Source: a virus
Strand: one strand, 5' to 3'
DNA: 49,164 bases
IMG/VR virus record: IMGVR_UViG_3300023174_000245
Location: 1-49,164 of that record
In this document: piece after piece, positions 1 to 47,648 of the stretch
How the letters are laid out: each line of letters opens with the position of its first letter
Numbering within the stretch: position 1 is the first letter of the stretch
Translations under genes and position numbers: made by a program
Notes under the pieces: generated by a model
Told to the model about the DNA's origin: nothing
Database searches by the model: none
Seen by the model: the letters and a program-made list of their open reading frames with translations, nothing else

Positions 1-91
1 AAGCTCCCGGAAAATTTTAAAATTTAATAGTGGATTACTTAAAAACAGGATCCAATATTGAGAAACCAAAAAGAAAGGAGGTGAAATAACA

Positions 92-283
92 ATGAACTAC
101 GATAACAAGAATCTTCGCCCGAAGACGTTCTTCGTCACGATGGAGCGCAACCGCAATGGTTCCTTCACCGTTAAGAAGGCCCGCGTCCTTAACCGTGCCA
201 ACCAGTACAGCCGTACTGTCAAGCGCGTTGACGCTCGCGATCTTCGCCGCGCCCTGGTTACCAACGACATCACCGTTGCTTAA
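92..283 (+). CDS. small basic highly expressed protein, unknown function
   Basis: 63 residues, rich in Arg and Lys, with no family I recognise. It has a textbook Shine-Dalgarno (AAGGAGGTG at about 75-83, 8 nt before the ATG), which is exceptional in this window. Its codons are biased to C-ending forms (AAC, TTC, CGC, GTC), as in the RadA-like and DUF932-like genes, which points to high expression. It stands alone and is closed by a strong rho-independent terminator at 302-341. Size and charge would suit a nucleic-acid-binding or host-takeover protein, but that is inference only. Confidence 0.85.
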   Translation: MNYDNKNLRPKTFFVTMERNRNGSFTVKKARVLNRANQYSRTVKRVDARDLRRALVTNDITVA

Positions 284-4016: not shown

Positions 4017-4459
4017 GGGGGCGACATAGATTCGACTTATAGTCTGAATTTATATTGCACGCAGTGGTTAGAAGGTTGGCCACTATAAAAGCCTTCTAAA
4101 AAACTAAACGCAGAAGATAATACTGATGCGCTCTTAGCTGAAGCTGAGTACATCTTCAACAACGCTGACCTCTTTGTTGGCGCTGAAGAAGAGATGCTCC
4201 TCGCAGCCTAAAAACTAAGATTAGATCCTATTAAAGATCTTAGGGAGCTAAAACAATAGGTTAATGTAGTATCTGCGATACTTGTAAAATAAGTGCAGAG
4301 GGTGGTATGTGGTCCTTAATCACACATACAGGCAGACTTTAAAAGATAGGTTGGTAAGCCATAGGAGCCTTTAGTCAATCAAATCCTAAATTTACATAAG
4401 CGTGTAGAAGATATAGAAGAAACATTATAAGGACCCGGGGGCAGTACCCGGCGCCTCCA
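4017..4459 (+). ncRNA. ssrA: transfer-messenger RNA (tmRNA) with a 33-residue tag
   Basis: 5' end GGGGGCG pairs with CGCCTCC (4452-4458), discriminator A4459, with the tmRNA-type ACATAGATTCGAC after the 5' strand. An H-type pseudoknot (PK1) is visible: GTGG and AGAAGG interleaved with CCAC and CCTTCT between 4061 and 4097. Twelve nt later comes the resume codon GCA (4110), opening a frame of 33 codons that begins AEDNTDALLA, ends EEEMLLAA and stops at TAA 4209-4211. Most bacterial tags are 8-15 residues. The T-stem CCGGG/CCCGG is intact but its loop GGCAGTA lacks the TTCGA-type signature. CCA is not encoded. Role: rescue of stalled ribosomes and tagging of the nascent chain for proteolysis. 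Confidence 0.9.
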
Positions 4460-4483
4460 GCTCTACTTCGACTCCACCATTTT

Positions 4484-7143: not shown

Positions 7144-7626
7144 ATGACACAAACAAACACATACACACTAGGCCGGGTAATTCCGGCAACAGGTACTGGT
7201 TATAGCCAACTTCCAGCCCTGTTTAACGAAAGTTGGTTAACAAGCGTTATCAAGGATTTTGATAAAGCATTTGATATTCCAAATGCTACATATCCTTATA
7301 ACATCGTAGCAGAAACCGATCCAGACGGTACACCGCAGACCTACTATATCGAAGTAGCTCTTGCAGGCGTTGGAAAGGAGCATATTAACGTCAGAGTTAA
7401 AGAAAATAAGCTCGTTATTGACGTTAGTAAGGAAGATGAAGAATATGATGAGACTATCATCTACCACCGTAAAGGAATCAGTCGTAGAAAGGGACAATTG
7501 TCCTTCACGCTGAAAGATAATACGGATGTAAAGTCTATCTCATCAACATACACAGACGGCCTTCTTCGAGTTAAGGTCCCTGTTGTAAAACCGGAGGTAC
7601 AAAATATCAGTATCGAGGTTAAATAA
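7144..7626 (+). CDS. small heat-shock protein (Hsp20/alpha-crystallin)
   Basis: 160 residues with a C-terminal alpha-crystallin domain: YIEVALAGVGKEHINVRV, then a strand-turn module ending in GLLRVKVPV. The N-terminal third is variable, as usual. These ATP-independent holdase chaperones are common in T4-like phages of aquatic bacteria and probably support capsid or tail assembly. It has a real leader and a good Shine-Dalgarno (AAGGAG, about 8 nt before the ATG), unlike most genes here. Confidence 0.92.
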   Translation: MTQTNTYTLGRVIPATGTGYSQLPALFNESWLTSVIKDFDKAFDIPNATYPYNIVAETDPDGTPQTYYIEVALAGVGKEHINVRVKENKLVIDVSKEDEEYDETIIYHRKGISRRKGQLSFTLKDNTDVKSISSTYTDGLLRVKVPVVKPEVQNISIEVK

Positions 7627-8423: not shown

Positions 8424-9134
8424 GTGAAGCATATTGTTTATAAAACGACAAATAATTTAAATAAAAAATATTATATCGGTATACATAGTACAGAGGATAT
8501 TAATGATGAATACCTTGGTTGCGGACACTGGAGAGGTAGAAGAATATATGCAGACACTAAAAGCCCTATTTTAAATGCCTTTTTAAAATATGGTGATGAG
8601 AACTTTACAAGAGATGTTCTTTTTATATTTGAGAGCAGAGAAGAGGCTCTTTTAAAGGAACGCGAGTTAATTAATATCGCCGATAGAGATTGCTATAACG
8701 CACGTGAAGGTGGAGAGAATGGTTATGTATATACTGAAGATGCAAAAAGTAAAATGTCGGCATCAGCTAAAGAAAGATCTAAGAGAATTTTATTACAAAC
8801 AAATTTATTAAGAGAATACAATAAATGGAGAACAGGTAAAACATACGCAGAGATATACGGTGATGAAAAAGCGAGAGAGGTTTCTATAAAGAAAGTAAAA
8901 TCGCTAACAGGACGAAAGCTCTCCGATGAACATAGGAGAAAAATGAGCAATAACCGTAAAGGTAAGGATTGCGGTAAATGTAGAGGTAGAGTCCAGATTT
9001 GGAGTGCTTTAGAAAATAAAGGCATAAGATTAACAAAAGAAGATTTGCAGTCTGAACTGAAGGTGGGCAATATAATTGAGCGAGCTTTTATAAAAGATAA
9101 ATTCCATAAATTTAAATTTATAAAAATTAAATAA
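8424..9134 (+). CDS. GIY-YIG homing endonuclease
   Basis: 236 residues starting with GTG. The N-terminus has the GIY-YIG module (VYKTTNNLNKKYYIGIHS, then a Gly-rich loop and a helix with ERELI). The C-terminal half carries NUMOD3-like DNA-binding repeats (KLSDEHRRKMSNNRKGK). It is free-standing, like the Seg endonucleases of T4, with its own late promoter. Its codons are more A/T-rich than its neighbours, fitting an independently mobile gene. Confidence 0.85.
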   Translation: MKHIVYKTTNNLNKKYYIGIHSTEDINDEYLGCGHWRGRRIYADTKSPILNAFLKYGDENFTRDVLFIFESREEALLKERELINIADRDCYNAREGGENGYVYTEDAKSKMSASAKERSKRILLQTNLLREYNKWRTGKTYAEIYGDEKAREVSIKKVKSLTGRKLSDEHRRKMSNNRKGKDCGKCRGRVQIWSALENKGIRLTKEDLQSELKVGNIIERAFIKDKFHKFKFIKIK

Positions 9135-10890: not shown

Positions 10891-11209
10891 AGAATATACA
10901 TTTGAAGAGATTGAACTAACAGAGGATTTTGCACGCTATATCTATGATTGGTATTGTGAAAATATAATTGTAAATCATCCACTTTCTCGTGCTGATTTTG
11001 TTCGTGCAAATAATCAGCGGGTTCAAGTTATTTTTGATGATCTTAAGGAACTTAATTACCTGATTGAAGAGCGGAAGACAGATCAGATCATTAGTCATTA
11101 CGGATGGATGAATGAGGAAGCTAAAGAACTTGTACCTCAAAATATTGTCGATCATATTGAAAAACTTAAAGCAGAGTATACTCTTATAGAAAACAACGAC
11201 GACTTTTAA
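10883..11209 (+). CDS. hypothetical protein, 108 aa
   Basis: Acidic helical protein, last gene of the coupled operon that starts at 10035. The ATG at 10883 is preferred over the upstream in-frame ATG because it gives a normal 8-nt overlap with the preceding gene. No recognised family. Confidence 0.65.
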   Translation: MSEEYTFEEIELTEDFARYIYDWYCENIIVNHPLSRADFVRANNQRVQVIFDDLKELNYLIEERKTDQIISHYGWMNEEAKELVPQNIVDHIEKLKAEYTLIENNDDF

Positions 11210-11215
11210 TAAATA
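11208..11215 (+). promoter_or_regulatory. late-type promoter AATAAATA
   Basis: AATAAATA ending 9 nt before the ATG at 11225. Confidence 0.5.
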
Positions 11216-11224
11216 TTTTGATAT

Positions 11225-11671
11225 ATGTATAATGACGAGAAACTTATAGCTGAAGCTTATACACGAATTTATCATGAATCTGATAAAGAGTTTGCTATGG
11301 ATGATTTAGCAGCTGCTGCTTCTGAACACGAGCAACAAAACGCCGATCAAGAAGACGGATTAAAGAAGTACACTTACGAGATACTTTATAAAACAGATTA
11401 TAAATATGATCCTAAGACAAAGAAAGCTATAAGTTGGTCTTATAAGTCTCATTCTAGTGGTCGCCCGGATATTCGTCATAAATTTGCTCATTCAGAAGAT
11501 GAGTTCTGGGATCAGATGGAAAACTCCGGACTTGGTGAACATGGTGATGAGTTGAGAGAAAAAATTGTTATTAAAGACGTTGAACTTGCAGATCCTAAGG
11601 AAGTGGAAAGAGAGAGATCACATGCTGAAACCATGCACGATTACTATCATGGACCAGGGAGTAAAAAATAG
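11225..11671 (+). CDS. putative capsid-packaged internal protein, 148 aa
   Basis: The N-terminus MYNDEKLIAEAYTRIYHES matches the T4 internal-protein pattern (MKTYQEFIAEA in T4 IPs), with LIAE|A as a candidate prohead-protease site. The remainder is hydrophilic and acidic with a His-rich tail, unrecognised. It has a late-type promoter and lies next to bS21 and a second targeted protein. Inference: processed in the prohead and packaged with DNA. Confidence 0.6.
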   Translation: MYNDEKLIAEAYTRIYHESDKEFAMDDLAAAASEHEQQNADQEDGLKKYTYEILYKTDYKYDPKTKKAISWSYKSHSSGRPDIRHKFAHSEDEFWDQMENSGLGEHGDELREKIVIKDVELADPKEVERERSHAETMHDYYHGPGSKK

Positions 11672-11692: not shown

Positions 11693-11875
11693 ATGCATTC
11701 GGTTGAAGTAAGAAAAGGCGAAGATATCGATCGCGCGTTAAAGCGGTTAAAGAATAAAATGGACATGGACTATGTTATGGATGAAGTCCGTGCACGTCGT
11801 TATTTTGAAACAGCTAGTGATAAGAAAAAGCGCAAAGCTAAGGCTCTAGATAAGAAGAGAAAATTTAATCGATAA
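11693..11875 (+). CDS. rpsU: ribosomal protein bS21 homologue
   Basis: 60 residues aligning end to end with bS21: N-terminal VEVRKGEDIDRALKRLKNK, central MDEVRARRYFETASDKKKRK, and a Lys/Arg-rich C-terminal helix. bS21 sits on the 30S platform beside the 3' end of 16S rRNA (the anti-Shine-Dalgarno) and influences initiation. A phage copy could replace the host protein on ribosomes. No obvious Shine-Dalgarno; it follows the packaged-protein gene by 21 nt and precedes the HELFH protein by 9 nt. Confidence 0.9.
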   Translation: MHSVEVRKGEDIDRALKRLKNKMDMDYVMDEVRARRYFETASDKKKRKAKALDKKRKFNR

Positions 11876-11884: not shown

Positions 11885-12679
11885 ATGTATCCTTTTAAAG
11901 CATTTGTAATAGAGAGTGATCTATCGAATGATGAGGAAGAACAGGTTTCTCTTGTCTTTAAGACATATTTAAAATATTTTAATCCTAGAGTTTTAGGTAA
12001 TAATAATCCAAAAGAAGTATATTCAAAGCGCCTACAACCTGATGGTACAATGGTTCTTGGGTCAATAAAGTATTACGATGAGGTAAAGCGCAAAGAGGAC
12101 AAGGTGTATGTAGTAGTTAATTTCGATCAGAGTCTTGGTGATGCTGAATATGATAGAAAGGATAATACTATTACCCTTTACTATCAAAAGTACGATAAAC
12201 TTAATAATAGTTTAAAACGGAATAAAATTGTTCACGAGCTCTTTCATGCTAAAGATTATAAGAAGCCAACAGCGGAGTATATCAAAGCAACATCAGGTAG
12301 CACTGTAGGTAGTAAGAGAGATTATTATACAGCTAAGAATGAGTTTCCTGTTCAAATAGCTGCTATTATGCATGAAATTAATTTACAGCAAAAAGAACTT
12401 CTCCGCCGTAGTAAAGCTGGAACTGGTATGAGCTTTTGGAAGAACAGAAGAAATCTCCTCCTTCAATCAATAGCTAATCTTATTAATGCTACGAAGATGA
12501 CTGAGGTACATGTACCGCAATTTCTATCTGACTATAAAGGTTTTATCGATACCCTTTATCGTAATAAAAACAATCCCTCTTATAAGAAATATTATAATGA
12601 ATATAAACAAAAACTGAAACAGCTATATAGCAATATTCAGAGAACAAGGTTTACGAATTCAAATGAAGAAGGAGCTTGA
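11885..12679 (+). CDS. HExxH protease-like protein with capsid-targeting-like N-terminus
   Basis: 264 residues. It begins MYPFKAFVIES, resembling a T4 capsid-targeting peptide with VIE|S as a possible cleavage site. HELFH at 117-121 is a zincin zinc-binding helix, and the preceding strands (VYVVVNFD, TITLYYQKYD) fit a metallopeptidase core. The C-terminal 130 residues are Lys/Asn-rich and helical. If packaged, it would enter the host with DNA or mature the head. The ATG sits inside a CGATAA/TTATCG inverted repeat. Confidence 0.6.
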   Translation: MYPFKAFVIESDLSNDEEEQVSLVFKTYLKYFNPRVLGNNNPKEVYSKRLQPDGTMVLGSIKYYDEVKRKEDKVYVVVNFDQSLGDAEYDRKDNTITLYYQKYDKLNNSLKRNKIVHELFHAKDYKKPTAEYIKATSGSTVGSKRDYYTAKNEFPVQIAAIMHEINLQQKELLRRSKAGTGMSFWKNRRNLLLQSIANLINATKMTEVHVPQFLSDYKGFIDTLYRNKNNPSYKKYYNEYKQKLKQLYSNIQRTRFTNSNEEGA

Positions 12680-14384: not shown

Positions 14385-15131
14385 TTATGTAATATTTAAA
14401 TTTGTTAATATGTGTTTAATTCTTTGGTAATAAAGGCCCATAGCGCCTGGATATCCAAGAGCCTTGCAAATGGCGTTCATGCTCTTACCGTCTTTATGCA
14501 TTGCTATGATTTTTTCCTTATTGAGATTTATACTACCGTGTATCGTGCTGCTGTCTGCTCTATTATTAATAATAGATATATTTCGGCATGATTTACTACA
14601 GTATTTTCGTTTACTTGTTTTGTCCTTTACTTCAAAACTCTGATCACAAATTGGACATATCTTACTTTTTCCGTCAAATTTTATAACCCTTCCACGCTTC
14701 CAGCCACTCTCAATAAAAGCGTCAAGTTCCTCTTTTTGTATTCTTATTGATATTTTTTGATCTATGTTATATATCCATACTTTACCGTAATTGTTATTTT
14801 TTTCTCCGATTTGCCTCTCTGAGGCGTATGCAGAATATTTTTTTCTTAGCCATTCGTATTGCCTATTTTTACTCATACGTTGCATATTAGTTTTTGAGGC
14901 CACGCACATCATCATTGCAGCGCTAATTAATTTATAATTTTTAGGGTAAATTTTCAATAATAATTGATGAGCGATGAAATGTTCTCTCGCAGTGAGGTTA
15001 ACGAGATTATCATCATCGTCATTGCCCCCTAAGCACCTTGGTATTATATGGTGGTTCTCGATATATCCTTGTTGTTTTTTTCTATTTTTCGCTCTATTAA
15101 TAAGATCCGTGTATATTTTTGAATAATGCAT
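14385..15131 (-). CDS. HNH homing endonuclease
   Basis: 248 residues. N-terminal HNH nuclease: ENHHIIPRCLGG (His27-His28), then NLVNLTAREHFIAH, the arrangement of phage free-standing HNH enzymes. The middle carries a two-pair Cys zinc ribbon (CPICDQSF ... YCSKSCRN), and the C-terminus a helix-turn-helix-like segment (NKEKIIAMHKDGKSMNAICK). It is inserted on the minus strand against the 3' end of tRNA-Arg, a classic site for mobile genes. A/T-rich codons fit recent acquisition. Confidence 0.88.
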   Translation of the reverse strand: MHYSKIYTDLINRAKNRKKQQGYIENHHIIPRCLGGNDDDDNLVNLTAREHFIAHQLLLKIYPKNYKLISAAMMMCVASKTNMQRMSKNRQYEWLRKKYSAYASERQIGEKNNNYGKVWIYNIDQKISIRIQKEELDAFIESGWKRGRVIKFDGKSKICPICDQSFEVKDKTSKRKYCSKSCRNISIINNRADSSTIHGSINLNKEKIIAMHKDGKSMNAICKALGYPGAMGLYYQRIKHILTNLNIT

Positions 15132-15728: not shown

Positions 15729-18700
15729 GTGCAGCTTGTTGACATTATATTAGATAATCGTATCTCTTGTTCCTTCATTGATGATAGCGGTGTTGAGAAT
15801 GTTATTTTCTGCCGTCCGTTAGAGGAAAGTCTTGATAATGTTTCACTAATAGCTACAAAAGATAATGAGTTCATTCATAATTATCTTGAAGAATCAACAG
15901 GCAAGTACCTTGAAACTAGTGTTATTCTAAATGACGGAACTATCTATGAAGGAGTTCGCTTTAAATTAGTTACTATAGAAGAGGGTAAAGAGCTCCCGGC
16001 ATCTACTGTTAACTTCTCATCCTTAGGGGTCCCGTCAGCTACTGATGTTCTCCCTCCTGCACGTTTAATTGAAGAAGATTATAACACAACACTTGAAAAT
16101 ATAGAAGAAGAGGATGACTTTAGTATTCTTTATGATGTTCCAGAAGCTATTGACAATTCCGGAATCGTTAAAAAGGTAAAGGCTCTTGAAACTAAGCTTG
16201 TTACCGAACAGCAAAAGCTTGAGCAGGAAAAGAATAAGCTCAATAAAGAGCGTGTAATTCTAGAAAATGAACGTCGGTTGTCTAAGGCTTTAGAAGATTA
16301 TAAAGCCGAACTCCTCCAGGAAACGTTTTTAGTTAGCAATCATCAAAAAGAGCTTCTTGAGAAATCAATTCAAGATCTTAGTAATTCATTTCAAGAACAA
16401 TTTGATGGTCAACAAATAAATGTTGAAAAGTATCTTGATACCCTCTCTTCAGCAAATTTAGAGGAAGTTAAAAAGTATCAAGACAGTCAGGTTGATAGAA
16501 TTAAAGATCAAATTAATACTCTCATATCTGAACGTCAAGAGAAAAATACTCTAACTACAGACAAGCTCTTACTTGAACGTACTTCTGAGCTTGAATCTAT
16601 TTTTACAGAAAAGCTTATTACCGAGCTTGAAGACCATAAGCGTAACGTAAAGATTGAGATTGACGGTATTAATAATGCATTAGATAACCTTATTGATGAA
16701 AAGCTAAAAGAGAATAACGATAATGTTGATCAACTCTTGGTTAGTAGAGCTGGTGTTCTTCAAGAACAGTTCAATGACAAGCTAACCAAGGACTTAATCG
16801 AACATAAAGATAGTCTCTTCAATGAATTTAAGACTGTATCAACGGAAACAGCTTCAACACTCTTTACTAAAAAAACTGAAGAGCTTAATAGCGCTCTAAC
16901 TATTGTTCTCAATGAACATAGACAGAATTTAGACAACACAGTTACCGGTAAGCTTAATGAAATTAGTTCTACAGTTAATACCTTTAAAACTGAAATTGAT
17001 GGTAAGCTCCCCCAGCTTGACGAAACAATTAAGGACATTAATAAGAGAATTCAAACCCTTGTTATTGAAAAAAAGAACGTTCAACTCTTAGTTGATGATG
17101 CTAGAAAGTATACAGACACTAAGGTAGCCCAGGTATCGGAAGAGGTCATGAATTACGCACGCCGTATTCTTGACTTAGGCAGCGGTGGTGGTTCTAATGC
17201 TGTTCAATACGCCAATGGCGGTACAATGAACGGTAGTCTTAATGTAACCGGTCAATATCTCTCCGGTGGTATTGATATTAGTACCCTTTTTGGTAAGGGA
17301 GGTGGCGGTACAAGTACAGCACAATCAATTTACGTATCCGGTGGTGCAATAGGATCGATTCAACCATTATCAGGATCTAATACAGCTTCTGGATATTTTT
17401 CCAACGTAGCTGGTGGTTCTGGTAATAATGCTTTTGGAGCTTATTCTTTTATAGGCGGTGGATGTCATAATATCACGGTATCTAATTGTTGTGGTTGTGT
17501 AGATTACGCTAGTATTATAAGTGGTGAGAATAATATTATAAGTAGTAATAGTGATAATGTTAGCCGACCTGGTTCCGCAAATCATTCAACCATAGTTGGC
17601 GGTAAGAATAACGTCATGTGTTCCGTGGGAGAAGGTCTTTTTGGCTATAGCTATGTAACTTATTCAAATATAGCCGGGGGCTATGGTAATGTCATGTGTT
17701 CACCCAATGGCGGTGAAGATATATCATACTCAAATATTGCAGGTGGTGGGTGTAATGTTATGTACGGTAATGCAAGTTACTCAAATATAGCTGGAGGTGT
17801 TGGTAATGTCATGTGTGTTACCACTAATAGTGTTTATACGCCGGATAGTTCTGCAAGTTACTCAAATATAGCAGGCGGGCAGGGTAATATTATACACAGT
17901 ATATACGCTGCTATAAATCACTCTGGTATTACAAGTGGTGAGAGTAATAGATTATGTGCTGTAACTTTAGGACCTTTAGCTCCTTATCCACCTATTCGGT
18001 ATGCTATAATAGATCATTCAAATATATCAGGCGGTCAGGGTAATATTATTACAAGCTGTGGGTGCAGTACTGTAAAACACGTAAGTATTGTTGGTGGTCA
18101 TAATAATATTGTTTGTAGTAACACTAATAGTGCTTATTACTGTGCTTGCGTTGTTACTGCAAATATAGCCGGAGGTTGTAGTAATAAAATAATCTCTTCT
18201 TGCGGTGGATCTGTTGTTGGAAATTCAAATATAGCTGGTGGTTGTAATAATACCGTATCTGGTGTTTCACCTACCTACCGAGGTGGGGGAGCTGTTGGTA
18301 ATTCAAATATAGCTGGTGGTACCAATAATACGGTAAGTGCAAGTTATTGTGCTAGTGTTGGTAATTCAAATATAGCCGGGGGTTGTAATAATACTGTATC
18401 TGCTTATGCTAATAGTGTAGACAGCTCTGGTATTGCAAGTGGTTTACATAATACTATATCATCTTTTTATGCCTTTATAAACAATTCAGGTATTGCAAGC
18501 GGGAAGAATAATACAATATGCGCTTGCGGTAGCATAGGTAATTACGGTTTTGGTTATGGAATATGTAGCTCGAACATAGCAGGTGGTGAGAGTAATAGTA
18601 TATGCTCTTATTGCTATAATGAAGTAAGATATGCAAGTATAGCCGGTGGTTCTAATAATACTATTACTGGTAGTGGTAGTTATTCTAATCCCGGTTGTTG

Positions 18701-19244
18701 TACGTTTCATTCTAGCATTGCAGGTGGTTACAACAATTTAATATGTAGTGCTTCTTGTTCTTTCATAGGTGGTGGTGACACAAATTGTACGACAAGTGTA
18801 CTCGCAGTCGTGGTTGGTGGTAATCATAATTGCGCTACAGGTGGTACTTCATTCGTAGGTGGTGGTAGAGTGAATACATCATCAGCACAGTACTCTACAG
18901 TTGTCGGTGGTAATCAGAATTCTAGTACTGGCTATGCAGCTTTTGTCGGGGGTGGTTATAATAATAATGCTTCTGGAGAGTATTCATCCATCATAGGCGG
19001 TGCTAGTAATGATACTAATAGTCAAGCTAATACATTTATTTTAGGCTCTAGTATAACAGCTCCACAATCTGGCTACACCTACGTGAATAATCTCTCATCA
19101 CAAGGTACAATTGCTGCAGCGAATATAAAAATTAATACAGCACCAAGTACATTTACAAATCCTGTAACTGCCTCTGGAACGTTCTTGATAGTAAATATCA
19201 ATGGAACAAATAAAGCACTACAACTCTGGGATTACTCTTCATAA
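15729..19244 (+). CDS. giant tail-fibre/adhesin with coiled coil and YadA-like beta-roll
   Basis: 1171 residues, GTG start set by TATAAATA. Domains: a globular N-terminus (1-130), probably for virion attachment; a very long coiled coil (about 145-475); a linker module YARRILDLGSGGGS plus ANGGTMNGSLNVTGQYLSGG; then about 550 residues of degenerate 14-20-residue repeats of the form SNIAGGxxN / SFIGGGxxN, as in the left-handed beta-roll head of YadA-type trimeric adhesins. The C-terminal module NTFILGSSITAPQSGYTYVN is shared with two other fibres here. Expected to be trimeric and to bind the host surface. The repeats are unusually rich in Cys. Confidence 0.85.
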   Translation: MQLVDIILDNRISCSFIDDSGVENVIFCRPLEESLDNVSLIATKDNEFIHNYLEESTGKYLETSVILNDGTIYEGVRFKLVTIEEGKELPASTVNFSSLGVPSATDVLPPARLIEEDYNTTLENIEEEDDFSILYDVPEAIDNSGIVKKVKALETKLVTEQQKLEQEKNKLNKERVILENERRLSKALEDYKAELLQETFLVSNHQKELLEKSIQDLSNSFQEQFDGQQINVEKYLDTLSSANLEEVKKYQDSQVDRIKDQINTLISERQEKNTLTTDKLLLERTSELESIFTEKLITELEDHKRNVKIEIDGINNALDNLIDEKLKENNDNVDQLLVSRAGVLQEQFNDKLTKDLIEHKDSLFNEFKTVSTETASTLFTKKTEELNSALTIVLNEHRQNLDNTVTGKLNEISSTVNTFKTEIDGKLPQLDETIKDINKRIQTLVIEKKNVQLLVDDARKYTDTKVAQVSEEVMNYARRILDLGSGGGSNAVQYANGGTMNGSLNVTGQYLSGGIDISTLFGKGGGGTSTAQSIYVSGGAIGSIQPLSGSNTASGYFSNVAGGSGNNAFGAYSFIGGGCHNITVSNCCGCVDYASIISGENNIISSNSDNVSRPGSANHSTIVGGKNNVMCSVGEGLFGYSYVTYSNIAGGYGNVMCSPNGGEDISYSNIAGGGCNVMYGNASYSNIAGGVGNVMCVTTNSVYTPDSSASYSNIAGGQGNIIHSIYAAINHSGITSGESNRLCAVTLGPLAPYPPIRYAIIDHSNISGGQGNIITSCGCSTVKHVSIVGGHNNIVCSNTNSAYYCACVVTANIAGGCSNKIISSCGGSVVGNSNIAGGCNNTVSGVSPTYRGGGAVGNSNIAGGTNNTVSASYCASVGNSNIAGGCNNTVSAYANSVDSSGIASGLHNTISSFYAFINNSGIASGKNNTICACGSIGNYGFGYGICSSNIAGGESNSICSYCYNEVRYASIAGGSNNTITGSGSYSNPGCCTFHSSIAGGYNNLICSASCSFIGGGDTNCTTSVLAVVVGGNHNCATGGTSFVGGGRVNTSSAQYSTVVGGNQNSSTGYAAFVGGGYNNNASGEYSSIIGGASNDTNSQANTFILGSSITAPQSGYTYVNNLSSQGTIAAANIKINTAPSTFTNPVTASGTFLIVNINGTNKALQLWDYSS

Positions 19245-19247
19245 TAT

Positions 19248-22200
19248 ATGTCTTTACAAATCGAAACACAACCATTTCAGTTTAATAGTAGTTTAACTAC
19301 ACTAGACGGTCTTACAGCTAGCGGTGCAGTAAGAATAGGTAATAACCTGACCGTTCTTGGTAATATATCTGCCGGTGGTACTGCGACATTTGCCAACACC
19401 GTATTTACAACAACTAGTGCTTTGTGCGCAGTAGCGAATAGTACAGGACCTGCTTTGTATATTGGTCAACAAGGAATCGGTGATCTTGCTTCTTTCTATG
19501 ATCTTAATCCAACGCCGGTTGAAGTCTTACACGTTGGTGCGTCAATTGGTATACCAGGTGTTGGTATCTATACATCAACACCTAATACAGCTCTAACAGT
19601 CGTCGGTGATATATCGGCAACAGGTGTTCTATATACAGCTAATAGTGTTAATTGGAATACAGCATACGCTTCTACTACTGCTTTAAATCTTTCTTCTTCT
19701 TCATGGAACAACTCCTTTACAGTCGTACAGTCAAATAGTGCTAACTGGAATAATGCATATCAATCTGTTTCTTCACAGCCGTATACCTTTATTGCTAGTA
19801 CATCGTCTATTGACACTGTCTTTGGTAGTAATAATGCAACCAATAATTTCTCTAGCGTATTAGGAGGTAATTGTAATTTAGCATCAGGAAACTATTCAAC
19901 TCTTGTTAATGGTTTTAGTAGCTGTGCTACAGGCTATGCAACTTTTGTAGGAGCAGGTTCAGGAAATAGAGCAACTGGTGATTATGCTGTTGTTGTAGGC
20001 GGTAGATGCAATAATGCGTCGGGTGTAGATTCAACAGTCGGCGGTGGTTGTTTCAATAGAGCATTAAATAAGTGCTCAACAGTAGGAGGAGGCGCCCAAA
20101 ATTGTGCAGCTGGAGATCAAGGCACTATCTCCGGTGGTTATCAGAACAGCCTCACAGGTACGTGGGGAACGATAGCGGGCGGACAGAGACATTGTATCAG
20201 TGGAAGCTGTTCATTTATTGGAGGCGGTACTAATAACACGATTGCAGCGGCTGCAGCAGTAATAGCCGGTGGAAGATGTCAGACTTCGTCGGGCATTTAT
20301 TCGACTATCGCAGGTGGCCTTGGTAACTACAATCCCTTAAGAGACTCAATCATCGGTGGAGGTGTTGCAAACCATACTGGTGGTTATGCTCCTTTTAATA
20401 TTACAGCAGCTGCTTCAATCTCTGGTAACGGTTCTCAAACCTGCTTGATTGGTACAGGTATTCAGAGCTGCTTCTCATCACCTTTTACATCTAACAATAT
20501 TTCTGTTTATTATGCTACAGCTGCTAATCCATTAAGCGCTGGTACATTTAGTACAGCTACAATTGCTGCAACTGGTACAAACTATATTATTATTAATGGT
20601 GACTATAGTACCTGTACTGCATCTGGTCTCAGTGCTACAAGCATCTATGTCTATGATAGAGCAATTAATAATACTGGTTATGATAATGTAATTGCTGGTG
20701 GAAAGCTTAATACAGCTTCAGGGTGTTATTCTACTATTGGTGGTGGTCGTTTGAATTGTATAGCAGGTAATTTCTCCACTATTGGTAGCGGATCTAATAA
20801 TAAAGTACTTTCTAATAACTCAACTGTGGGCGGAGGTGGTAACAATACTGCCTCAGGAAGTTATTCTACTGTAGCTGGTGGTTGTGGAAATACGGCAGGT
20901 GGCTTTTTTAGTAACGTCGCTGGTGGTTTTGGTAATAACGCTACTAATAGAGGGGCCATACTAGGTGGTAGAGGTAATACAAATTCTGGTTATTACTCTT
21001 CAATAGCTGGTGGTCAGGGTAACTGTATATGCTCGTCTACATGTTATAATCTTATTGGTACAGGTCATTGTAATGTTATATCATCTAACACATGCTTTAA
21101 CTCCATTGTTGCTGGTAGATTTAATTATAACCCGCTGTCGTTTTCTAATATCGAAGGTGGTTCTTTTAATCATATGGGCGGCTATGCTCCTAATAATATA
21201 ACAGCAGCTGCTTCAATCTCCGGTAATGGTACTAATACTGCTTTAATTCAAACGGGTATTGGTTCGTGCTTTAGCGCTTCTAGTACAACAGGTGCTGTAT
21301 CATTAATGTGGATGACCTCAGGTACAGCTTTCAGTAACCTATCCTCTGCATGTTTTACGACAGCTAACGTTGTTACAAATGCAGCTAACTGTATTATCAT
21401 TAACGGTGATTATAGTACTTGTACAGGAACAGGATTAAGTGCTTGTAATATTTGGGTCTTTGATAGATGCTTAAACCAAGGCGGATGCTTTAACTTTATT
21501 GGTGGTGGTGTATTGAATACAGCTTCTAACTGTTATAGTACTATTGGTGGTGGAATAAGAAACGTAGCATCATGTTTCTATACAACAGTTGGCGGTGGCT
21601 TTTTCAACGCAGCATCATGTAACTATTCAACTGTAGCTGGCGGTCAATGTAATACAGCTTCAGGAACTTATAGCTTTGTTGGTGGTGGTCTTATTAATAA
21701 TGCTGGTCCAAGAAGTGGTATATTAGGCGGTAGAAGCAATACAGCATCAGCATATTATAGTGCTATTGTTGCAGGAAATAATAACTGTATCTGTAGTACA
21801 AACAGCAATCCTAACAATAGCTTTATTGGTGCGGGGTCCCGAAACACCACACAAAACCGCTGGGCTGTAATTGGTGGTGGTTGTTGTAATAACGTAAGTG
21901 GGTGTTGGGGGGTTATAGGTGGTGGTTATTTGAATACAGTATCTGGATTGTATTCATTTGTCGCAGGTGGTTCTGCTAATGATACAAAAGGATTCACTAA
22001 CACATTTATTTTAGGTTCAAACTTGAGTGCTTCACAAGTTAACTATACATATGTTAACAACATTAGTGCCCAAAGTACAATAAGTGCTCCATCAATTAGT
22101 GCGGTAACGTTCTACGGGGATGGATCAAAATTAACAGGCATTACAAGCGGTGGTGGTAGTGGTCTATATTTGCCGCTCTCTGGCGGAACAATGACAGGTG

Positions 22201-22850
22201 GTTTGTCGGCTCCATCGTTATCTGCAAATAATTTTTATGGGTCAGGGAGTGAAGCTATACTATCTGATGGGTTGTCAGCAAATAATACAGGCCAGGGAAC
22301 AAATACACTTTCCTTGAATTTCTCAAATGGTGTATATATTGGAGGTAATGGTTCATTATCAGCTACAAATATCTATGCTAATGGTGTATCTAGATTTAAC
22401 TATCTGAGCGCTGATGGTAGCGCGACACCTACAGGAAATTCTATCGCACCATACGGCTTGACATCTTTTACATTAGCGGCTAATGGTGTGTATGAGTTGT
22501 TATATGAATTACATTTTGCAAAAACGGTTACAGGTAATACTGTGTACACGGTATCTGCATCTAACACAATGACAACTGTTAGCTTAGAAGCTGTTAATAC
22601 TGCTGCAGCGGGAGGCGGTTCATTTGGTACTGCTGTAAAAGCTTCTGCACTAGGTAGCTCTATATCAACCCTCGCTACATCTGCAGCAACAACAAATACA
22701 GGTACCACACAAAATGTTACTATAAGAAGTCTTATTATTAATGGTAGTACGAATAATACAGTTACCATAGCTGTCACAAATTCAACAGGAACAAACCCAA
22801 CACTAACTCCTAAGGCAGGTAGCTACGGTACATTAACGAGAATAGCATAA
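19248..22850 (+). CDS. giant fibre protein with YadA-like beta-roll repeats
   Basis: 1200 residues, starting 3 nt after the previous stop. N-terminal beta-rich region (1-170) without coiled coil, then two long blocks of YadA-like repeats (STIGGGxxNxASGxY) separated by a conserved spacer that occurs twice (NITAAASISGNG ... IIINGDYSTCTASGLSA). The shared NTFILGS/YTYVNN module follows, then a collagen-like SGGGSG linker and a C-terminal beta domain (about 1030-1200) that may be the receptor-binding tip. Probably the distal part of the fibre begun at 15729. Confidence 0.85.
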   Translation: MSLQIETQPFQFNSSLTTLDGLTASGAVRIGNNLTVLGNISAGGTATFANTVFTTTSALCAVANSTGPALYIGQQGIGDLASFYDLNPTPVEVLHVGASIGIPGVGIYTSTPNTALTVVGDISATGVLYTANSVNWNTAYASTTALNLSSSSWNNSFTVVQSNSANWNNAYQSVSSQPYTFIASTSSIDTVFGSNNATNNFSSVLGGNCNLASGNYSTLVNGFSSCATGYATFVGAGSGNRATGDYAVVVGGRCNNASGVDSTVGGGCFNRALNKCSTVGGGAQNCAAGDQGTISGGYQNSLTGTWGTIAGGQRHCISGSCSFIGGGTNNTIAAAAAVIAGGRCQTSSGIYSTIAGGLGNYNPLRDSIIGGGVANHTGGYAPFNITAAASISGNGSQTCLIGTGIQSCFSSPFTSNNISVYYATAANPLSAGTFSTATIAATGTNYIIINGDYSTCTASGLSATSIYVYDRAINNTGYDNVIAGGKLNTASGCYSTIGGGRLNCIAGNFSTIGSGSNNKVLSNNSTVGGGGNNTASGSYSTVAGGCGNTAGGFFSNVAGGFGNNATNRGAILGGRGNTNSGYYSSIAGGQGNCICSSTCYNLIGTGHCNVISSNTCFNSIVAGRFNYNPLSFSNIEGGSFNHMGGYAPNNITAAASISGNGTNTALIQTGIGSCFSASSTTGAVSLMWMTSGTAFSNLSSACFTTANVVTNAANCIIINGDYSTCTGTGLSACNIWVFDRCLNQGGCFNFIGGGVLNTASNCYSTIGGGIRNVASCFYTTVGGGFFNAASCNYSTVAGGQCNTASGTYSFVGGGLINNAGPRSGILGGRSNTASAYYSAIVAGNNNCICSTNSNPNNSFIGAGSRNTTQNRWAVIGGGCCNNVSGCWGVIGGGYLNTVSGLYSFVAGGSANDTKGFTNTFILGSNLSASQVNYTYVNNISAQSTISAPSISAVTFYGDGSKLTGITSGGGSGLYLPLSGGTMTGGLSAPSLSANNFYGSGSEAILSDGLSANNTGQGTNTLSLNFSNGVYIGGNGSLSATNIYANGVSRFNYLSADGSATPTGNSIAPYGLTSFTLAANGVYELLYELHFAKTVTGNTVYTVSASNTMTTVSLEAVNTAAAGGGSFGTAVKASALGSSISTLATSAATTNTGTTQNVTIRSLIINGSTNNTVTIAVTNSTGTNPTLTPKAGSYGTLTRIA

Positions 22851-24251: not shown

Positions 24252-24264
24252 TATTTAATAAATA
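24252..24264. promoter_or_regulatory. overlapping divergent late promoters
   Basis: ATTAAATA on the minus strand (24252-24259) and AATAAATA on the plus strand (24257-24264) overlap in a near-perfect palindrome. They end 5 nt from the start at 24246 (minus) and 6 nt from the ATG at 24271 (plus). Confidence 0.6.
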
Positions 24265-24270: not shown

Positions 24271-24534
24271 ATGGATATTACAATTACACCGATGCAGACT
24301 GTGGTAACCCCCGCTGTAACCGTTTCGCTTAGCGATATAGAGGTTATGGCGGTTAGAGATGATTTTAAACAGCAACAAATCTTTGCCTTTATTAAGGGTC
24401 TTCCTAAGCCAGTTATTCTCTGGAAGGGTGAGGAAGAATACGCTGCAGCAGGTGCTTGGACAAACGAAAGCGTTCTAGCTCGAGCTACAGAGGTTATTAA
24501 CCTTTCAGCTTCTTCACTGCCCTGGGCTTTTTAA
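24271..24534 (+). CDS. hypothetical protein, 87 aa
   Basis: Begins with beta-type repeats (ITITPMQTVVTPAVTVSL), then an alpha/beta region. The late promoter suggests a virion or late function. Unrecognised. Confidence 0.6.
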   Translation: MDITITPMQTVVTPAVTVSLSDIEVMAVRDDFKQQQIFAFIKGLPKPVILWKGEEEYAAAGAWTNESVLARATEVINLSASSLPWAF

Positions 24535-33183: not shown

Positions 33184-34980
33184 TTATAGGGCTTCGATAG
33201 CATTAATTGACCCAACGATAGTTGATGTACTAGATCCAGCTGCAACAAGTCTTGCTGTAAGAATAACTTTATCTGCATCTGTATAATTAATATTTGATCC
33301 GAGATTTAAGAAGTTTAATGCAGTCTTAACATCAATTGGTGCTTGTGATGTAGCGAAACCAGACATAAGCTCAATACCCTGGGAAGTAATAGCTGTTGTT
33401 GTAGTATATGCCCATTGTCTAGATGATTTACCAATATCTTTTGAAGCTGGTACACCTGAAAGACCTGGATTAAACAATAGCTTCCACTGAATAACAGATT
33501 GTGTTGTATTATTCTGATTTGATAAATTAGCCGTATCTATAACATTCATTTCCTGGATCTGCATATCAGATCTCTGGTACGGTTCACCAGCTCTTAACCC
33601 AAGTCCGAGAATAGGCTGATCTTTTCCAGCAGCAAGAGTAATAGGAGTTATATTATAAGAGGCAATAAATGCTGGGTTTAATTCCGACTCTGCTTCAACA
33701 ACAAATGCTGTCCCATCAATTGTCATCGATGGGTTATAAGATAATGTTTTATAGTTAAGAATCTCTTTTCTATCCATTAGTGCGGGAGCACTCTCGTATT
33801 GAAGACCAAGAGTATTAGAGAAGTCAAAAGTATGAAGATAAGTAGGACCCGCTGATCCATTAATACCGAAATGAGTTACTGCTGTTCTCCCGCCATTAAA
33901 TTCAAAGAAGAGGGTGTGAGCATTATGATAACCATCATGGGTTATAGTAGCATTACTAACACTGCTATAAACATCAGGGTCAATAGTATAGGTCGCTGTT
34001 AACTTATTTGTTGCTGTATTAATTGCAGCAATGGCAGCTGTTCCATTATAACCGGAAGGAGTAACACCTAAGATAGTAGCCTTTGTACCCGGCTTAAGAG
34101 CTGATAAAGCATTACCAGAATAAGTGAACTCTGTGTTGTAGACATTTCCATCACCAGCAATAGCAACAGGCCATCTATTTGTTCCAGCAGTTATAGAACC
34201 AGATAAAACTGTTGACCAATTTTGACCCGATGGTCCATTTCCATCGAGCTTATCACCATTGAAATTATTTCTGTTTACTCTTTCTTCGGCTAATGTACCA
34301 TCAGTTAATCTTCTGCGAACAACAACATTAAGATCTGCTCCAGATAGCTCAAAGAACATACCATTAAAGTTTGTAAACAATCCAAGTCTCTTTATAGTTC
34401 CATCATCCTGTCCATCAAAATTAACTGTTCCTGACCATTGATGCGATACACCAGGGCGAACTTTAAACCTTCTTCTTGATGCTCTGATTATCGAGCCTGT
34501 TGAACTTGTACCAGGTGTCATTGTAACAGATGCTATATTCTGAACAAAGATACTAGAAGCACCGGGTGTTGCTGTTTCAATTAATCTTAAATCTCCATCC
34601 TTATCAACCGATGACACATACCACCAGCCCTGTTGAGGTAATACTACTCTCAGACGATGATTGGCGTCAAGCTGAGGCCCATCGGCGTATGTTACAAAAG
34701 CAGCTGCAGACCCCGGGTTAGTAACAGTTACGTTCATCGTTGTTGTTGGATTGACAACAGAGACGGGAAAAGTTTGGGTTGTACTAACTGCTACAGTATT
34801 TGTTATATTGAGTGCGGTAACGGGATTGATTATTGTAAAGCTACCTGATACGGATAGGGTATTATTATTTGTACTAACAACGACAGCGGTTGTAGGATTG
34901 AGAATAGTAGCACTTAATGAAGTTACAGGATTCAGCGTATAGCTGCTAGTAGGCTGTAATAACGACGTTAAGGGAATCAT
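33184..34980 (-). CDS. large virion/fibre structural protein, 598 aa
   Basis: Thr/Asn/Val-rich beta repeats at the N-terminus (NPVTSLSATI, NPTTAVVVS, NPVTALNITN, NPTTTMNVTV), a central beta domain with VSHQWSGTVNFDGQDDGTIKR, and a C-terminal globular region. Looks like a baseplate or fibre component; similar proteins occur in aquatic T4-like phages. A perfect TATAAATA (34990-34997, minus) lies 9 nt upstream. No enzymatic motif seen. Confidence 0.65.
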   Translation of the reverse strand: MIPLTSLLQPTSSYTLNPVTSLSATILNPTTAVVVSTNNNTLSVSGSFTIINPVTALNITNTVAVSTTQTFPVSVVNPTTTMNVTVTNPGSAAAFVTYADGPQLDANHRLRVVLPQQGWWYVSSVDKDGDLRLIETATPGASSIFVQNIASVTMTPGTSSTGSIIRASRRRFKVRPGVSHQWSGTVNFDGQDDGTIKRLGLFTNFNGMFFELSGADLNVVVRRRLTDGTLAEERVNRNNFNGDKLDGNGPSGQNWSTVLSGSITAGTNRWPVAIAGDGNVYNTEFTYSGNALSALKPGTKATILGVTPSGYNGTAAIAAINTATNKLTATYTIDPDVYSSVSNATITHDGYHNAHTLFFEFNGGRTAVTHFGINGSAGPTYLHTFDFSNTLGLQYESAPALMDRKEILNYKTLSYNPSMTIDGTAFVVEAESELNPAFIASYNITPITLAAGKDQPILGLGLRAGEPYQRSDMQIQEMNVIDTANLSNQNNTTQSVIQWKLLFNPGLSGVPASKDIGKSSRQWAYTTTTAITSQGIELMSGFATSQAPIDVKTALNFLNLGSNINYTDADKVILTARLVAAGSSTSTIVGSINAIEAL

Positions 34981-34989
34981 ACTTTTGTT

Positions 34990-34997
34990 TATTTATA
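34990..34997 (-). promoter_or_regulatory. late promoter TATAAATA for the 598-aa virion gene
   Basis: Perfect octamer on the minus strand, 9 nt before the start at 34980. Confidence 0.6.
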
Positions 34998-34999
34998 GA

Positions 35000-36805
35000 C
35001 TATTGCGTCAATCTCCATCCGTAAGACCCACCTAGATAGAGTGCTTTAAGTGCAATTCCGGCGAGATTCATTGCAATCGGTTGATTTTGACCTTCGATAT
35101 TAACGTTTGCTGATAATACAAAGTTCTTTGTGGCCCAAGAATAATAAGGATCTATGAAACCTATAATCCTACCGATAGTTGGTGATGAGGGTAATAACCC
35201 GGTAACTCCAGATGTCGTTGTATCAACAGCATAATAATTTGGAGCTGTAGCTGTAAAGTTACTAGAAACATAATTATATGTTGTATTCCAGACATTTGAA
35301 TTCGATACCCCATCATAAACAATTCCTGTTGCGTTTATGTTACCCGAAACACTTAATGTCTGGGTTGGATTACTTGTACCAATACCAACATTACCAGAAG
35401 AATTAATAACCATTCTTTGATTCTCAGTTGTTGTGCCGCCGGTAAAGAATAGTAAGTTGTTATTTATAGCTGTACCAATTCCGAGATTTCCGGCATAGCT
35501 ATAGATATACGAATCATTAGCACCGACGACGTTAAATGTAGGTGAATAAAGATTACCGTTATACAGTGAGCTATTAATGCCCATGTCGATGTAGCTTATA
35601 TTTGTATCGTTATAAATTGCTATATCTGAGCTTGCACTGACTCCGGCGTATGAATTCTGAATTTCATTATAAACAGATCCTAGAGCTTGTGCTAAAACTG
35701 TTAGTGGCTGCTGATTGAATAATCCCGGTACTAGAGAATTGATACCAACGGTAAAGCTTGTTAAGGTTGTTGTATTAGTCGTTGTCGCGCTAATTACATT
35801 TAAATTGGTAACATTCAGTGTATCAAAATAGCTAGTACCTGGCACATTTACCGGGCATAAGAAACTGACACCCGGAAGACTATTACCACCTATAATCATC
35901 GGATATGATGGATATGCAGGATCGGCATTAATATTATAACCGCTTAGAATTAAGCCACTGGTATAAAAGCTATTTGACTTTACGCTATTATTTGCTGTAA
36001 TATTACTAGCTGTAAGACTAGTAACAGATGTATCAGTTAATAATATAGGTCTTCCATTTGTCGTATAAATTTGATTACCGCTAAACGCAATATTTCCTGT
36101 ACTAAAGTCGCTTAAAATAACAGTAGCGAGATCAACTCCGCCAGATAGATATTGTCCGGTAACGTTAAGATTACCATTCATTGTACCACCGTTAGCAAAT
36201 TGCTGGGCTACCGACCCTCCACCACCACCGAGATCTAAAATTCTTCTAGCATATTTTGTTACATATTCTTCAATTAGTTTTTTTACATCCTCTATTTTTT
36301 CAGGTTGCTTTTCATTGACAACTTTTGTAGTAAGTTTATCAAGGTCATTAATATATTTGCTTGATTCCGGTGTCTTTTCAACAGATTGTTTTTGTAATTC
36401 TTGAACATATGGATTAACTACTGGCTCCAGCTCTTTTATAGGCTCTTCTTCTACAGGAGCCTCTTCCTGCATAACATTAGGTACCAATACTTCCTGTCTT
36501 GGGGTTGTAAGAATATTCTTAAGCTTATCAACAAAATCTTCAAAATTCTTTTCTTCGACAACCAATGGTGTTTTATCTATAACAATCTCTGGTATAGTCT
36601 CATTAACTGGCGTTGTTTCTTGAAGGTGGGCCTGAACTTGCTGATTAATTTTCTCTTGTAGATTCAATAATGTTTCTTCTAAAGGCAGAACTGAAGGTAT
36701 CTCAGTATTTGAGTTTATCTTCTCCATAAGAGCTTTATGCTCTTTCTCTACTCTAATCTTCTCGGTAAGATTAGATAGAAAGTTTATAAACGGATCTTGT
36801 TCCAC
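35000..36805 (-). CDS. tail-fibre protein sharing the coiled-coil/YARRILDLG module
   Basis: 601 residues, GTG start. An N-terminal helical/acidic region (1-200) leads to YARRILDLGGGGGS and ANGGTMNGNLNVTGQYLSGG, almost identical in pattern to the 1171-aa fibre. It continues as beta-rich fibre (200-540) with an LGIGTAINN/VGIGTSNPTQTLSVSG segment typical of trimeric fibres, and ends in a small tip domain (GSYGWRLTQ). It probably attaches to the virion by a different N-terminus while reusing the same shaft module. Confidence 0.75.
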   Translation of the reverse strand: MEQDPFINFLSNLTEKIRVEKEHKALMEKINSNTEIPSVLPLEETLLNLQEKINQQVQAHLQETTPVNETIPEIVIDKTPLVVEEKNFEDFVDKLKNILTTPRQEVLVPNVMQEEAPVEEEPIKELEPVVNPYVQELQKQSVEKTPESSKYINDLDKLTTKVVNEKQPEKIEDVKKLIEEYVTKYARRILDLGGGGGSVAQQFANGGTMNGNLNVTGQYLSGGVDLATVILSDFSTGNIAFSGNQIYTTNGRPILLTDTSVTSLTASNITANNSVKSNSFYTSGLILSGYNINADPAYPSYPMIIGGNSLPGVSFLCPVNVPGTSYFDTLNVTNLNVISATTTNTTTLTSFTVGINSLVPGLFNQQPLTVLAQALGSVYNEIQNSYAGVSASSDIAIYNDTNISYIDMGINSSLYNGNLYSPTFNVVGANDSYIYSYAGNLGIGTAINNNLLFFTGGTTTENQRMVINSSGNVGIGTSNPTQTLSVSGNINATGIVYDGVSNSNVWNTTYNYVSSNFTATAPNYYAVDTTTSGVTGLLPSSPTIGRIIGFIDPYYSWATKNFVLSANVNIEGQNQPIAMNLAGIALKALYLGGSYGWRLTQ

Positions 36806-37229: not shown

Positions 37230-38576
37230 TTAGACGTAAATTGGTATATTACCAATACAGACACCGGCTGCGTTATAGACCGGCATCTTTGAAACAAATG
37301 ATCCTATAGCTCCGGAGGCGGTTGTACCAACAGCGTATGTATTGCCAAATACTCTACCCTGGGAGCTAATATTATTGACGTAAGTATAATTTGTTTGAGA
37401 TGCACTTAAGCTAGATCCAAGAATAAAGATATTTGAAGAGACGATCGTATTACCATAACCACCCACGATAGATGAGCAATTACCTGATGCTATATTATTC
37501 TGCGCGCCGCCTAAAATAGTGTTACAATTACCGGCTACACAGTTTTTAAACCCACCAACAACGACACCATAGTTACCTGAAATTGTATTACAAACACCGT
37601 TTCCAATATAGGAATAACAGCCTGTGTTTAAGCTACTGAATCCGCCAAATATTGTTGACATGCATCCGGATGTTACATTACAGCATCCGCCGACAATACT
37701 ACTGTAAGTACTGTTTGTTGTGTTACAAGCTCCACCAACAACACTGGATGTACAGCCTAAACTACAGTTGCATTGACCGCCAACTACATTGCTATAACTC
37801 AAACCTGTGCAGTTACAAAAGCCACCGACAATATTTGAATACATGCATGCTGTGGTATTCTTACAACCAGATCCTATGAAAGAAAAGGCTGATAACGTGC
37901 AATTAACGTTTCCAGCGACTACAGCGTTAGCTACTTCAAATGTCTTATTATTACACCCACCACCAATGAACGAACTACAGCAGTTTATAGTATTAAAACA
38001 CCCACCACCAATAAACGATCCTATACCGCAATTTTTATTTTGTGTACCAGCGCCGATTCCGCTACAAGAACTTAAAGTCCAGTTAGCTGTACCACCGCCA
38101 ATAAAACTATATGATCCATTTGCAAATGTACAGTTCTGTGAACCACCAGCAATTGTACTGTAGACACCGGAGGAAGTGGTGCTAGCAGCGCTTATTGGTA
38201 CAACAGAGCCGTTAGCTGTTGAATATTTATAAGGTCCAGCAAACGTGTAATTACTGTTTATCTGTTGAACAGGTCGGTAGGAAGCGTAAGTGTTGTAGCT
38301 ACCACCGGAGAGAATATAAAAGATTCCACGAGGACCATCAAAGACAATATCACCAGTTTGAATAGTAGCAAGATTGCTATCATTACCGGTAATACCTAAT
38401 GTACTTGTATAGAACTTAATACCCGCACTAATTCCCCCGGCTGTTGATCCATCGCCTACGAATAAGCGCTTAGAGTCTGTTGTATAACCGATTTCACCCT
38501 GATCGAGGGTAACTAGTTGACGCTGGGCGTCCGTACCTCTACGGACTTTAAGTTTAATAACTGATACGTTAGCCAT
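37230..38576 (-). CDS. short fibre with RRGT-type N-terminus and Cys-rich YadA-like beta-roll
   Basis: 448 residues. The N-terminus IKLKVRRGTDAQRQLVTLDQ, then GEIGYTTDSKRLFVGDGST, is a widespread phage fibre/appendage attachment module. Residues about 135-385 are YadA-like repeats (SFIGGGxxN / SNVVGGxxN) with a Cys in most turns. The module NIFILGSSLSASQTNYTYVN is shared with the 15.7-22.8 kb fibres. TATAAATA ends 6 nt upstream. Confidence 0.8.
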   Translation of the reverse strand: MANVSVIKLKVRRGTDAQRQLVTLDQGEIGYTTDSKRLFVGDGSTAGGISAGIKFYTSTLGITGNDSNLATIQTGDIVFDGPRGIFYILSGGSYNTYASYRPVQQINSNYTFAGPYKYSTANGSVVPISAASTTSSGVYSTIAGGSQNCTFANGSYSFIGGGTANWTLSSCSGIGAGTQNKNCGIGSFIGGGCFNTINCCSSFIGGGCNNKTFEVANAVVAGNVNCTLSAFSFIGSGCKNTTACMYSNIVGGFCNCTGLSYSNVVGGQCNCSLGCTSSVVGGACNTTNSTYSSIVGGCCNVTSGCMSTIFGGFSSLNTGCYSYIGNGVCNTISGNYGVVVGGFKNCVAGNCNTILGGAQNNIASGNCSSIVGGYGNTIVSSNIFILGSSLSASQTNYTYVNNISSQGRVFGNTYAVGTTASGAIGSFVSKMPVYNAAGVCIGNIPIYV

Positions 38577-40378: not shown

Positions 40379-40870
40379 CTACTTCTTTTTCTTCTTAATA
40401 CCAGCCTTTGTCAAGGCAATCGCTACGGCTTGTTTTTGAGGATGGCCTTTCTTAACTTCTTTTGAGATTGTCTTACCGACTTCCTTTTGCTTTTCCTTCT
40501 TTGTCTTCTCTTCAACAAGACCTAATGAAGGAAGAATGTTTTCACCAACAAAGCTCTTAAGCTCGTTGTCATAAAGACCTGTCATGATATATTCAAGGAA
40601 CGTATCAACGGCTTTATTGTTTTGAGTGCGTGCACGATTTAATGAACGCTCAAGAAGGGTCTTGTTAATCTTACCTTCATACCACTTGTAAGCAATAAAC
40701 TTTACTGTATTCTCCTGGATAGGATTGTAAGCAGCTGAAAAGAGAGTAAAGCTTGAAGTAATCTTTGAAACGATATCAAGCATAAGATCACCATCTTCAA
40801 TGCTAATTTGCTCAGGTTGATTGTAAATGCTTGTGTAAGCTTCAGCTAAGATCTTATAGTCGTCTCTCAT
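40379..40870 (-). CDS. putative capsid-packaged internal protein with basic tail, 163 aa
   Basis: MRDDYKILAEAYTSIYNQPE closely parallels the protein at 11225 (same spacing of LAEAY and IY) and T4 internal proteins; ILAE|A is the predicted cleavage site. The body is helical, and the tail GHPQKQAVAIALTKAGIKKK resembles a Lys-rich motif seen in many DUF6496-like proteins. ATTAAATA ends 5 nt upstream. Confidence 0.65.
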   Translation of the reverse strand: MRDDYKILAEAYTSIYNQPEQISIEDGDLMLDIVSKITSSFTLFSAAYNPIQENTVKFIAYKWYEGKINKTLLERSLNRARTQNNKAVDTFLEYIMTGLYDNELKSFVGENILPSLGLVEEKTKKEKQKEVGKTISKEVKKGHPQKQAVAIALTKAGIKKKKK

Positions 40871-41971: not shown

Positions 41972-42000
41972 TTGCTACTTCCTTTTTATCTAGCCATAAT
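41972..42000 (+). promoter_or_regulatory. sigma70-type promoter abutting the start at 42007
   Basis: TTGCTA (41972-41977), 17 bp, CATAAT (41995-42000), exactly 6 nt to the ATG. Confidence 0.7.
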
Positions 42001-47641: not shown

Positions 47642-47648
47642 AAATAAA

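Follow-up and report, generated by a model that had tools for sequence, protein, structure and literature searches.

The ribosomal protein bS21 is reported to be the one that phages carry most often, and both the presence of bS21 genes in phages and the proposal that their products are swapped into host ribosomes have already been published (PMC6375957, PMC9723584). The bS21 of the Pelagibacter phage HTVC008M enters the ribosomes of E. coli (Mizuno et al. 2019, PMC6375957); since in vitro translation then drops to about 5% of wild type (PMC6375957), incorporation can also do harm in a foreign host. Phage bS21 genes are transcribed together with late structural genes (PMC9723584), and in Flavobacterium johnsoniae the cellular bS21 depresses initiation on messages with a strong Shine–Dalgarno (SD) sequence and promotes it on those that have no SD (PMC9976891).

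Here we describe a bS21 gene from a 49-kb IMG/VR virus record, a fragment of a T4-like phage (hereinafter the window, meaning the whole stretch of 49,164 nucleotides analyzed). New here are the leaderless promoter architecture predicted throughout this lineage of the T4 superfamily, the distinct bS21 clade paired with it, and a single conserved SD gene. Neither a leaderless layout across the genomes of a T4-type phage lineage nor its pairing with bS21 turned up in the open-access literature searched. The combination of bS21, an SD-poor leaderless layout and one invariant SD gene offers a built-in contrast for the effect of bS21 on message choice.

The bS21 gene, its lineage and its transcription

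The gene lies between two conserved hypothetical genes:

11209..11215, + strand: T4-type late box ATAAATA, 9 nt 5′ of the ATG at 11225; probable promoter of the 11225–bS21 transcript
11225..11671, + strand: upstream cistron, conserved hypothetical, predicted to be late and leaderless; N-terminus MYNDEKLIAE/AY, resembling a T4-type capsid-targeting peptide
11693..11875, + strand: bS21 (ribosomal protein S21) gene, 60 aa, ATG start, without an SD or late box of its own
11885..12679, + strand: downstream gene, conserved hypothetical; N-terminus MYPFKAFVIE, resembling a capsid-targeting peptide

The 60-aa product, MHSVEVRKGEDIDRALKRLKNKMDMDYVMDEVRARRYFETASDKKKRKAKALDKKRKFNR, matches the Ribosomal_S21 profile PF01165 with 62.5 bits (E 3e-17; curated cut-off 27 bits) over profile positions 1–54 of 55, as well as PHROG 21469, ribosomal protein S21. 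It is a genuine full-length phage bS21, as the sequence-only reading of this DNA had maintained. Close relatives share the N-terminus MHSV and the ATG, and the pairwise dN (0.06–0.34) is far below dS (0.7 to saturated) in all pairs of relatives; the protein is under purifying selection. Homologues at 58–77% identity come from virus contigs only. As the best cellular matches reach just 36–45% identity and no INPHARED phage gave a bS21 match at E 0.01, the host is not assignable via bS21.

The relatives are all metagenomic contigs; the large ones are G001 (198,847 b), G013 (193,220 b), G002 (130,033 b), G005 (76,300 b), G014 (54,024 b) and G009 (36,370 b). The window has about 35 proteins in common with G001, at identities of up to 89%. 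Homologues of the T4-superfamily markers gp20, gp43 and gp55 are found in G001 and are absent from the window fragment; its portal (gp20) and DNA polymerase (gp43) show about 30–35% identity to those of cyanophages, pelagiphages and Melnitz. Judged by these markers, the lineage is placed as a deep branch of the T4 superfamily. The bS21 gene is present in the window and in all six of these relatives, and no relative that retains the region lacks it. A further contig, G015, was considered as a leaderless control without bS21, but as an 18.6-kb fragment of a rearranged region it is uninformative. In G001, where bS21 is at 167046 and the portal gene occupies 33339–35108, bS21 stands outside the terminase/capsid/protease/portal cluster. 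The relative G005 also carries a group I intron (RF00028; L042, 14260–14484) and densely arrayed tRNA genes.

In the window, a 21-nt spacer without an SD separates bS21 from the stop codon of 11225–11671, and bS21 itself, going by the predicted promoter, is not leaderless. The same layout recurs in L002, L003, L017 and L019: bS21 is the second cistron and, in these as in the window, the ATG of the first lies 8–9 nt past ATAAATA. Elsewhere the late box is directly 5′ of bS21, at 6–20 nt (L021, L074, L075), or is a TTAAATA, 16 nt ahead of the preceding gene in L020 and 89 nt 5′ of bS21 in L005. Nearly all members of the lineage have a late box immediately 5′ of bS21 or one cistron further up, in most relatives bS21 comes second behind a late promoter, and G001 encodes a gp55-like late sigma factor (38–44% identity, E 5e-20 to 2e-23). 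Together these make late transcription of bS21 from a gp55-type promoter a well-supported prediction and bear out the earlier placement of the gene in a late-gene region.

The N-termini of the two flanking genes belong to a recurrent set. Peptides of the MNxDxxLIxE/AY and MLxFKxFxxE types begin the products of mostly late, predicted leaderless genes, namely those starting at 11225 and 11885 on either side of bS21 and those at 40379–40870, 45407–46474, 47243–47683 and 47649–48179. They resemble the capsid-targeting peptides that the prohead protease of T4 cleaves, which suggests a putative family of packaged internal head proteins.

Promoter position and the leaderless layout

Late boxes, counted with the pattern [AT]TAAATA, end 3–10 nt 5′ of an ATG 15 times in the window versus 0.28 expected, 48 times versus 0.98 in G001, 30 versus 0.61 in G002 and 16 versus 0.33 in G005. 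Across 850 genes of five related phages, 151 of the 193 T4-type late boxes within 40 nt of a start are at 3–10 nt, with a peak at 5–9. The sigma-70 promoters of these five phages behave alike: 173 of 212 TTG-N16-18-TATAAT-like promoters end 3–10 nt ahead of the start codon, and for 85 this distance is exactly 6 nt. Since the distance from the −10 box to the transcription start is usually 6–7 nt, the +1 would fall on the start codon. Examples from the window are as follows:

41972..42000, + strand: sigma-70 promoter TTGCTA-N17-CATAAT, with a 6-nt gap to the ATG of 42007–42201, at which the start site is predicted
24258..24264, + strand: late box ATAAATA, separated by 6 nt from the ATG of 24271–24534
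37230..38576, − strand: tail-fiber-like gene whose late box ATAAATA ends 6 nt before the ATG

The −10 boxes come with −35 elements in register. In the window, 10 of the 16 near-start sigma-70-like −10 boxes have a TTG at a 16–18 nt spacer, versus 1% off-register; the corresponding counts are 33/50 in G001 and 24/33 in G002 (off-register 1–6%), and the in-register share is 50–73% over the five larger sets, with 0/10 in the small set of G014. These boxes mark first genes and not tight operon-internal genes. Their consensus is of the sigma-70 type and differs from the generally known Bacteroidota type. Start codons 4–10 nt after late boxes are ATG (181) or GTG (43), 224 in total, versus 7 that are TTG (3) or CTG (4). 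SD-like pairing is found for 0.08–0.17 of genes in the window, G001, G002 and G005, which is near background, as compared to 0.53 in T4, 0.42 in HTVC008M, 0.33 in C48C1 and 0.49 in Melnitz, each represented by a stretch of about 49 kb; in the same stretches HTVC008M, C48C1 and Melnitz have almost no late boxes at 3–10 nt.

Genes with sigma-70 promoters, presumed to be early, share the leaderless layout to the same degree as the late ones. About half of all genes have no recognizable promoter of their own. With gene starts predicted mechanically and leaderlessness judged from promoter position, a leaderless layout across the lineage is strongly supported as a prediction. The initial proposal that most phage genes are leaderless thus holds for most promoter-proximal genes, on the strength of the late-box excess and the −35 register, but not for “most genes” as such. 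For the late genes, the positions show what would be an entire T4-type promoter system shifted to the start codon. Leaderless genes are known in Thermus phages; a T4-type phage with leaderless late genes was not found in the open-access literature searched.

Against this layout stands one gene:

74..84, + strand: perfect extended Shine–Dalgarno AAAGGAGGTGA, 11 nt, 5′ of gene 92–283
92..283, + strand: 63-aa conserved gene, the lineage's single gene with strong SD dependence

Its relatives in every phage checked keep AAAGGAGGTGAAATAA with an ATG a few bases on, and its product has no relatives in PHROGs. As this gene keeps a perfect SD, the anti-SD of the host must be usable at least sometimes. 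Separately, an Hsp20-like gene at 7144–7626 of the window has a Shine–Dalgarno AAAGGAGAA, as do its counterparts in G005 and G009.

Among the other window genes there are two homing endonucleases, a GIY-YIG at 8424–9134, with a late box 5 nt before its GTG start, and an HNH at 14385–15131. Very large, repeat-rich adhesin- or tail-fiber-like proteins with GGG-x-N-x-(A/S)-SG repeats are encoded at 15729–22850 and 37230–38576; neither has a PHROG match.

Possible roles of the phage bS21

The reading we favor, with moderate confidence, combines a true late phage bS21, acting as a generic top-up or replacement in the 30S subunit, with a leaderless layout that is a separate trait of the lineage. By this account bS21, which the sequence places under a late gp55-type promoter and mostly second on a leaderless transcript, would be translated and, by analogy with its family and HTVC008M, built into the host 30S beside the anti-SD. 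Its likeliest role there would be to top up or replace host bS21, providing enough complete, phage-favoring 30S subunits during the late burst. The leaderless layout would probably reflect a host that translates AUG/GUG-first messages well, and the two traits may interact.

The sequence-only reading had instead tied bS21 specifically to leaderless messages, a tie that is not supported because the leadered, SD-bearing HTVC008M and Melnitz carry bS21 too. Together with its presence in several unrelated jumbo phages, this means that the usefulness of bS21 does not depend on messages being leaderless; likewise, the virus contig L008, with a bS21 of a different clade, is leadered. A bS21 gene does not suffice for the leaderless layout, nor is it specific to it. 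The bS21 clade of the lineage (DRALKRLKNK-type), followed out to distant members at about 51–53% identity (L022, L023), was found with leaderless genomes only, but as this association lies entirely within one lineage it amounts to a single evolutionary observation. A special link of this clade to leaderlessness is possible.

The alternative that survives best, although we hold it to be unlikely, is that, late in infection, the phage protein takes the place of host bS21 and moves 30S/70S selection away from SD-led messages toward leaderless phage ones; a corollary is that the strongly SD-led phage gene 92–283 would be shut off as well, which makes this gene a natural test of the re-specialization idea. 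The lineage-wide layout, the restriction of a perfect SD to one gene in all members, the confinement of the clade to leaderless genomes and the preference of F. johnsoniae bS21 ribosomes for SD-less over strong-SD messages (PMC9976891) are all in line with it. Set against these, leadered T4-like phages have bS21 too, and the equally leaderless sigma-70 genes mean that host ribosomes must read leaderless phage messages before the late phage bS21 is made. Further, the premise of the original proposal points the opposite way, because ribosomes lacking bS21 are the ones it ties to leaderless translation; in our control set, the bacteria without a bS21 match (Thermus, Deinobacterium, Corynebacterium) belong to groups known for leaderless translation. 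The position equivalent to Tyr54 of F. johnsoniae (aligned without gaps), the residue of the Bacteroidia-type anti-SD lock, is Lys or Arg in the bS21 of the lineage; Tyr54 is confined to Bacteroidia, Tyr-bearing bS21 chains being those of 9i5v and 7jil. A search of five records for a phage initiation factor favoring leaderless messages gave no IF1-family or IF3 match. The available sequence tests do not separate such re-specialization from generic ribosome capture. Its switch-like form, in which phage bS21 would close the anti-SD late in infection, silencing the SD-led messages of the host and the one phage SD gene so that the leaderless phage transcriptome is preferred, strikes us as slightly less likely again.

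A second alternative, which we consider improbable, would have the phage supply bS21 to a host with none or little of it, such as a leaderless-rich actinobacterium, completing ribosomes without any swap. The ATG/GTG preference after late boxes (224 versus 7) agrees with the rule found in mycobacteria (PMC4633059). The window also encodes a tmRNA:

4017..4462, + strand: one-piece tmRNA (RF00023, 92.6 bits; missed by ARAGORN), with the long predicted tag AEDNTDALLAEAEYIFNNADLFVGAEEEMLLAA

Such a one-piece form is compatible with this supply scenario, as in most Alphaproteobacteria and Cyanobacteria tmRNA is not one-piece (PMC9004378). However, the T4-superfamily phages of known host in our searches mostly infect Gram-negative bacteria. 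G001, G002 and G013 carry a one-piece tmRNA as well; the window copy departs from these in an aberrant-looking T-loop region and in the lack of a CCA right after the acceptor stem. An alphaproteobacterial host, suggested by NrdA similarity and CTTG-type −35 elements, is weakened by the one-piece tmRNA; a Bacteroidetes host, suggested by Chen 2022, is weakened by the canonical TTG/TATAAT promoters and the missing Tyr54. Taken together, the one-piece tmRNA, canonical sigma-70 promoters and usable anti-SD narrow the host and do not name one.

Slightly more doubtful is an extra-ribosomal function, with the basic bS21 binding phage or host RNA or being packaged into the head with its neighbors. One report places bS21 in the OLE RNA complex of Bacillota (PMC12054373), Chen et al. 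raised packaging as a possibility (PMC9723584), and the genes flanking bS21 in the window and G001 have capsid-targeting-like N-termini. Yet bS21 itself lacks such a peptide and conserves the entire Pfam profile, and in G013 the flanking genes do not adjoin it.

AT-rich DNA ahead of starts is common in low-GC phages, and the boxes might accordingly be translation enhancers with the leaderless reading wrong; this we rejected on the −35 register (50–73% in the five larger sets versus 1–6% off-register), and its probability is very low given also the placement at first genes and not at tight operon-internal ones, the sharp peak at 6 nt (85 genes) and the lack of the pattern in related phages of similar GC.

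Comparison with known systems

HTVC008M resembles the window lineage in being a T4-superfamily phage with a PF01165 bS21 and an Hsp20 gene nearby, but its bS21 belongs to another clade and its genome is leadered, with an SD in 0.42 of genes versus 0.08–0.17. The Bacteroidetes phages with bS21 described by Chen et al. 2022 (PMC9723584) are likewise aquatic myoviruses for which late expression was inferred and ribosome takeover proposed. In those, however, bS21 lies in the terminase/capsid/protease cluster and has an aromatic residue at position 54, whereas in G001 about 130 kb separate it from the portal gene, and in the window lineage residue 54 is replaced by Lys or Arg.

F. johnsoniae (McNutt et al. 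2023, PMC9976891) offers a cellular parallel in its SD-poor messages, a rare gene with a perfect extended SD and a bS21 located by the 16S tail; there, however, the cell's own bS21 is at work and rpsU itself bears the SD, whereas in the window lineage the SD belongs to a 63-aa phage gene unrelated to rpsU. Mycobacterial leaderless translation (Shell et al. 2015, PMC4633059) shares the RTG-only starts at the predicted mRNA 5′ end, though the mycobacterial transcripts were mapped and those of the window lineage are predicted from promoter position. Finally, T4 late transcription uses the gp55 sigma factor, of which a gp55-like version occurs here, and the same TATAAATA box. In T4, where genes have an SD, this box is mostly 19–34 nt from the start, while in the window lineage it is mostly at 5–9 nt with no SD. 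Even apart from bS21, the predicted leaderless layout is noteworthy as an apparent wholesale relocation of T4-type late promoters to the start codon.
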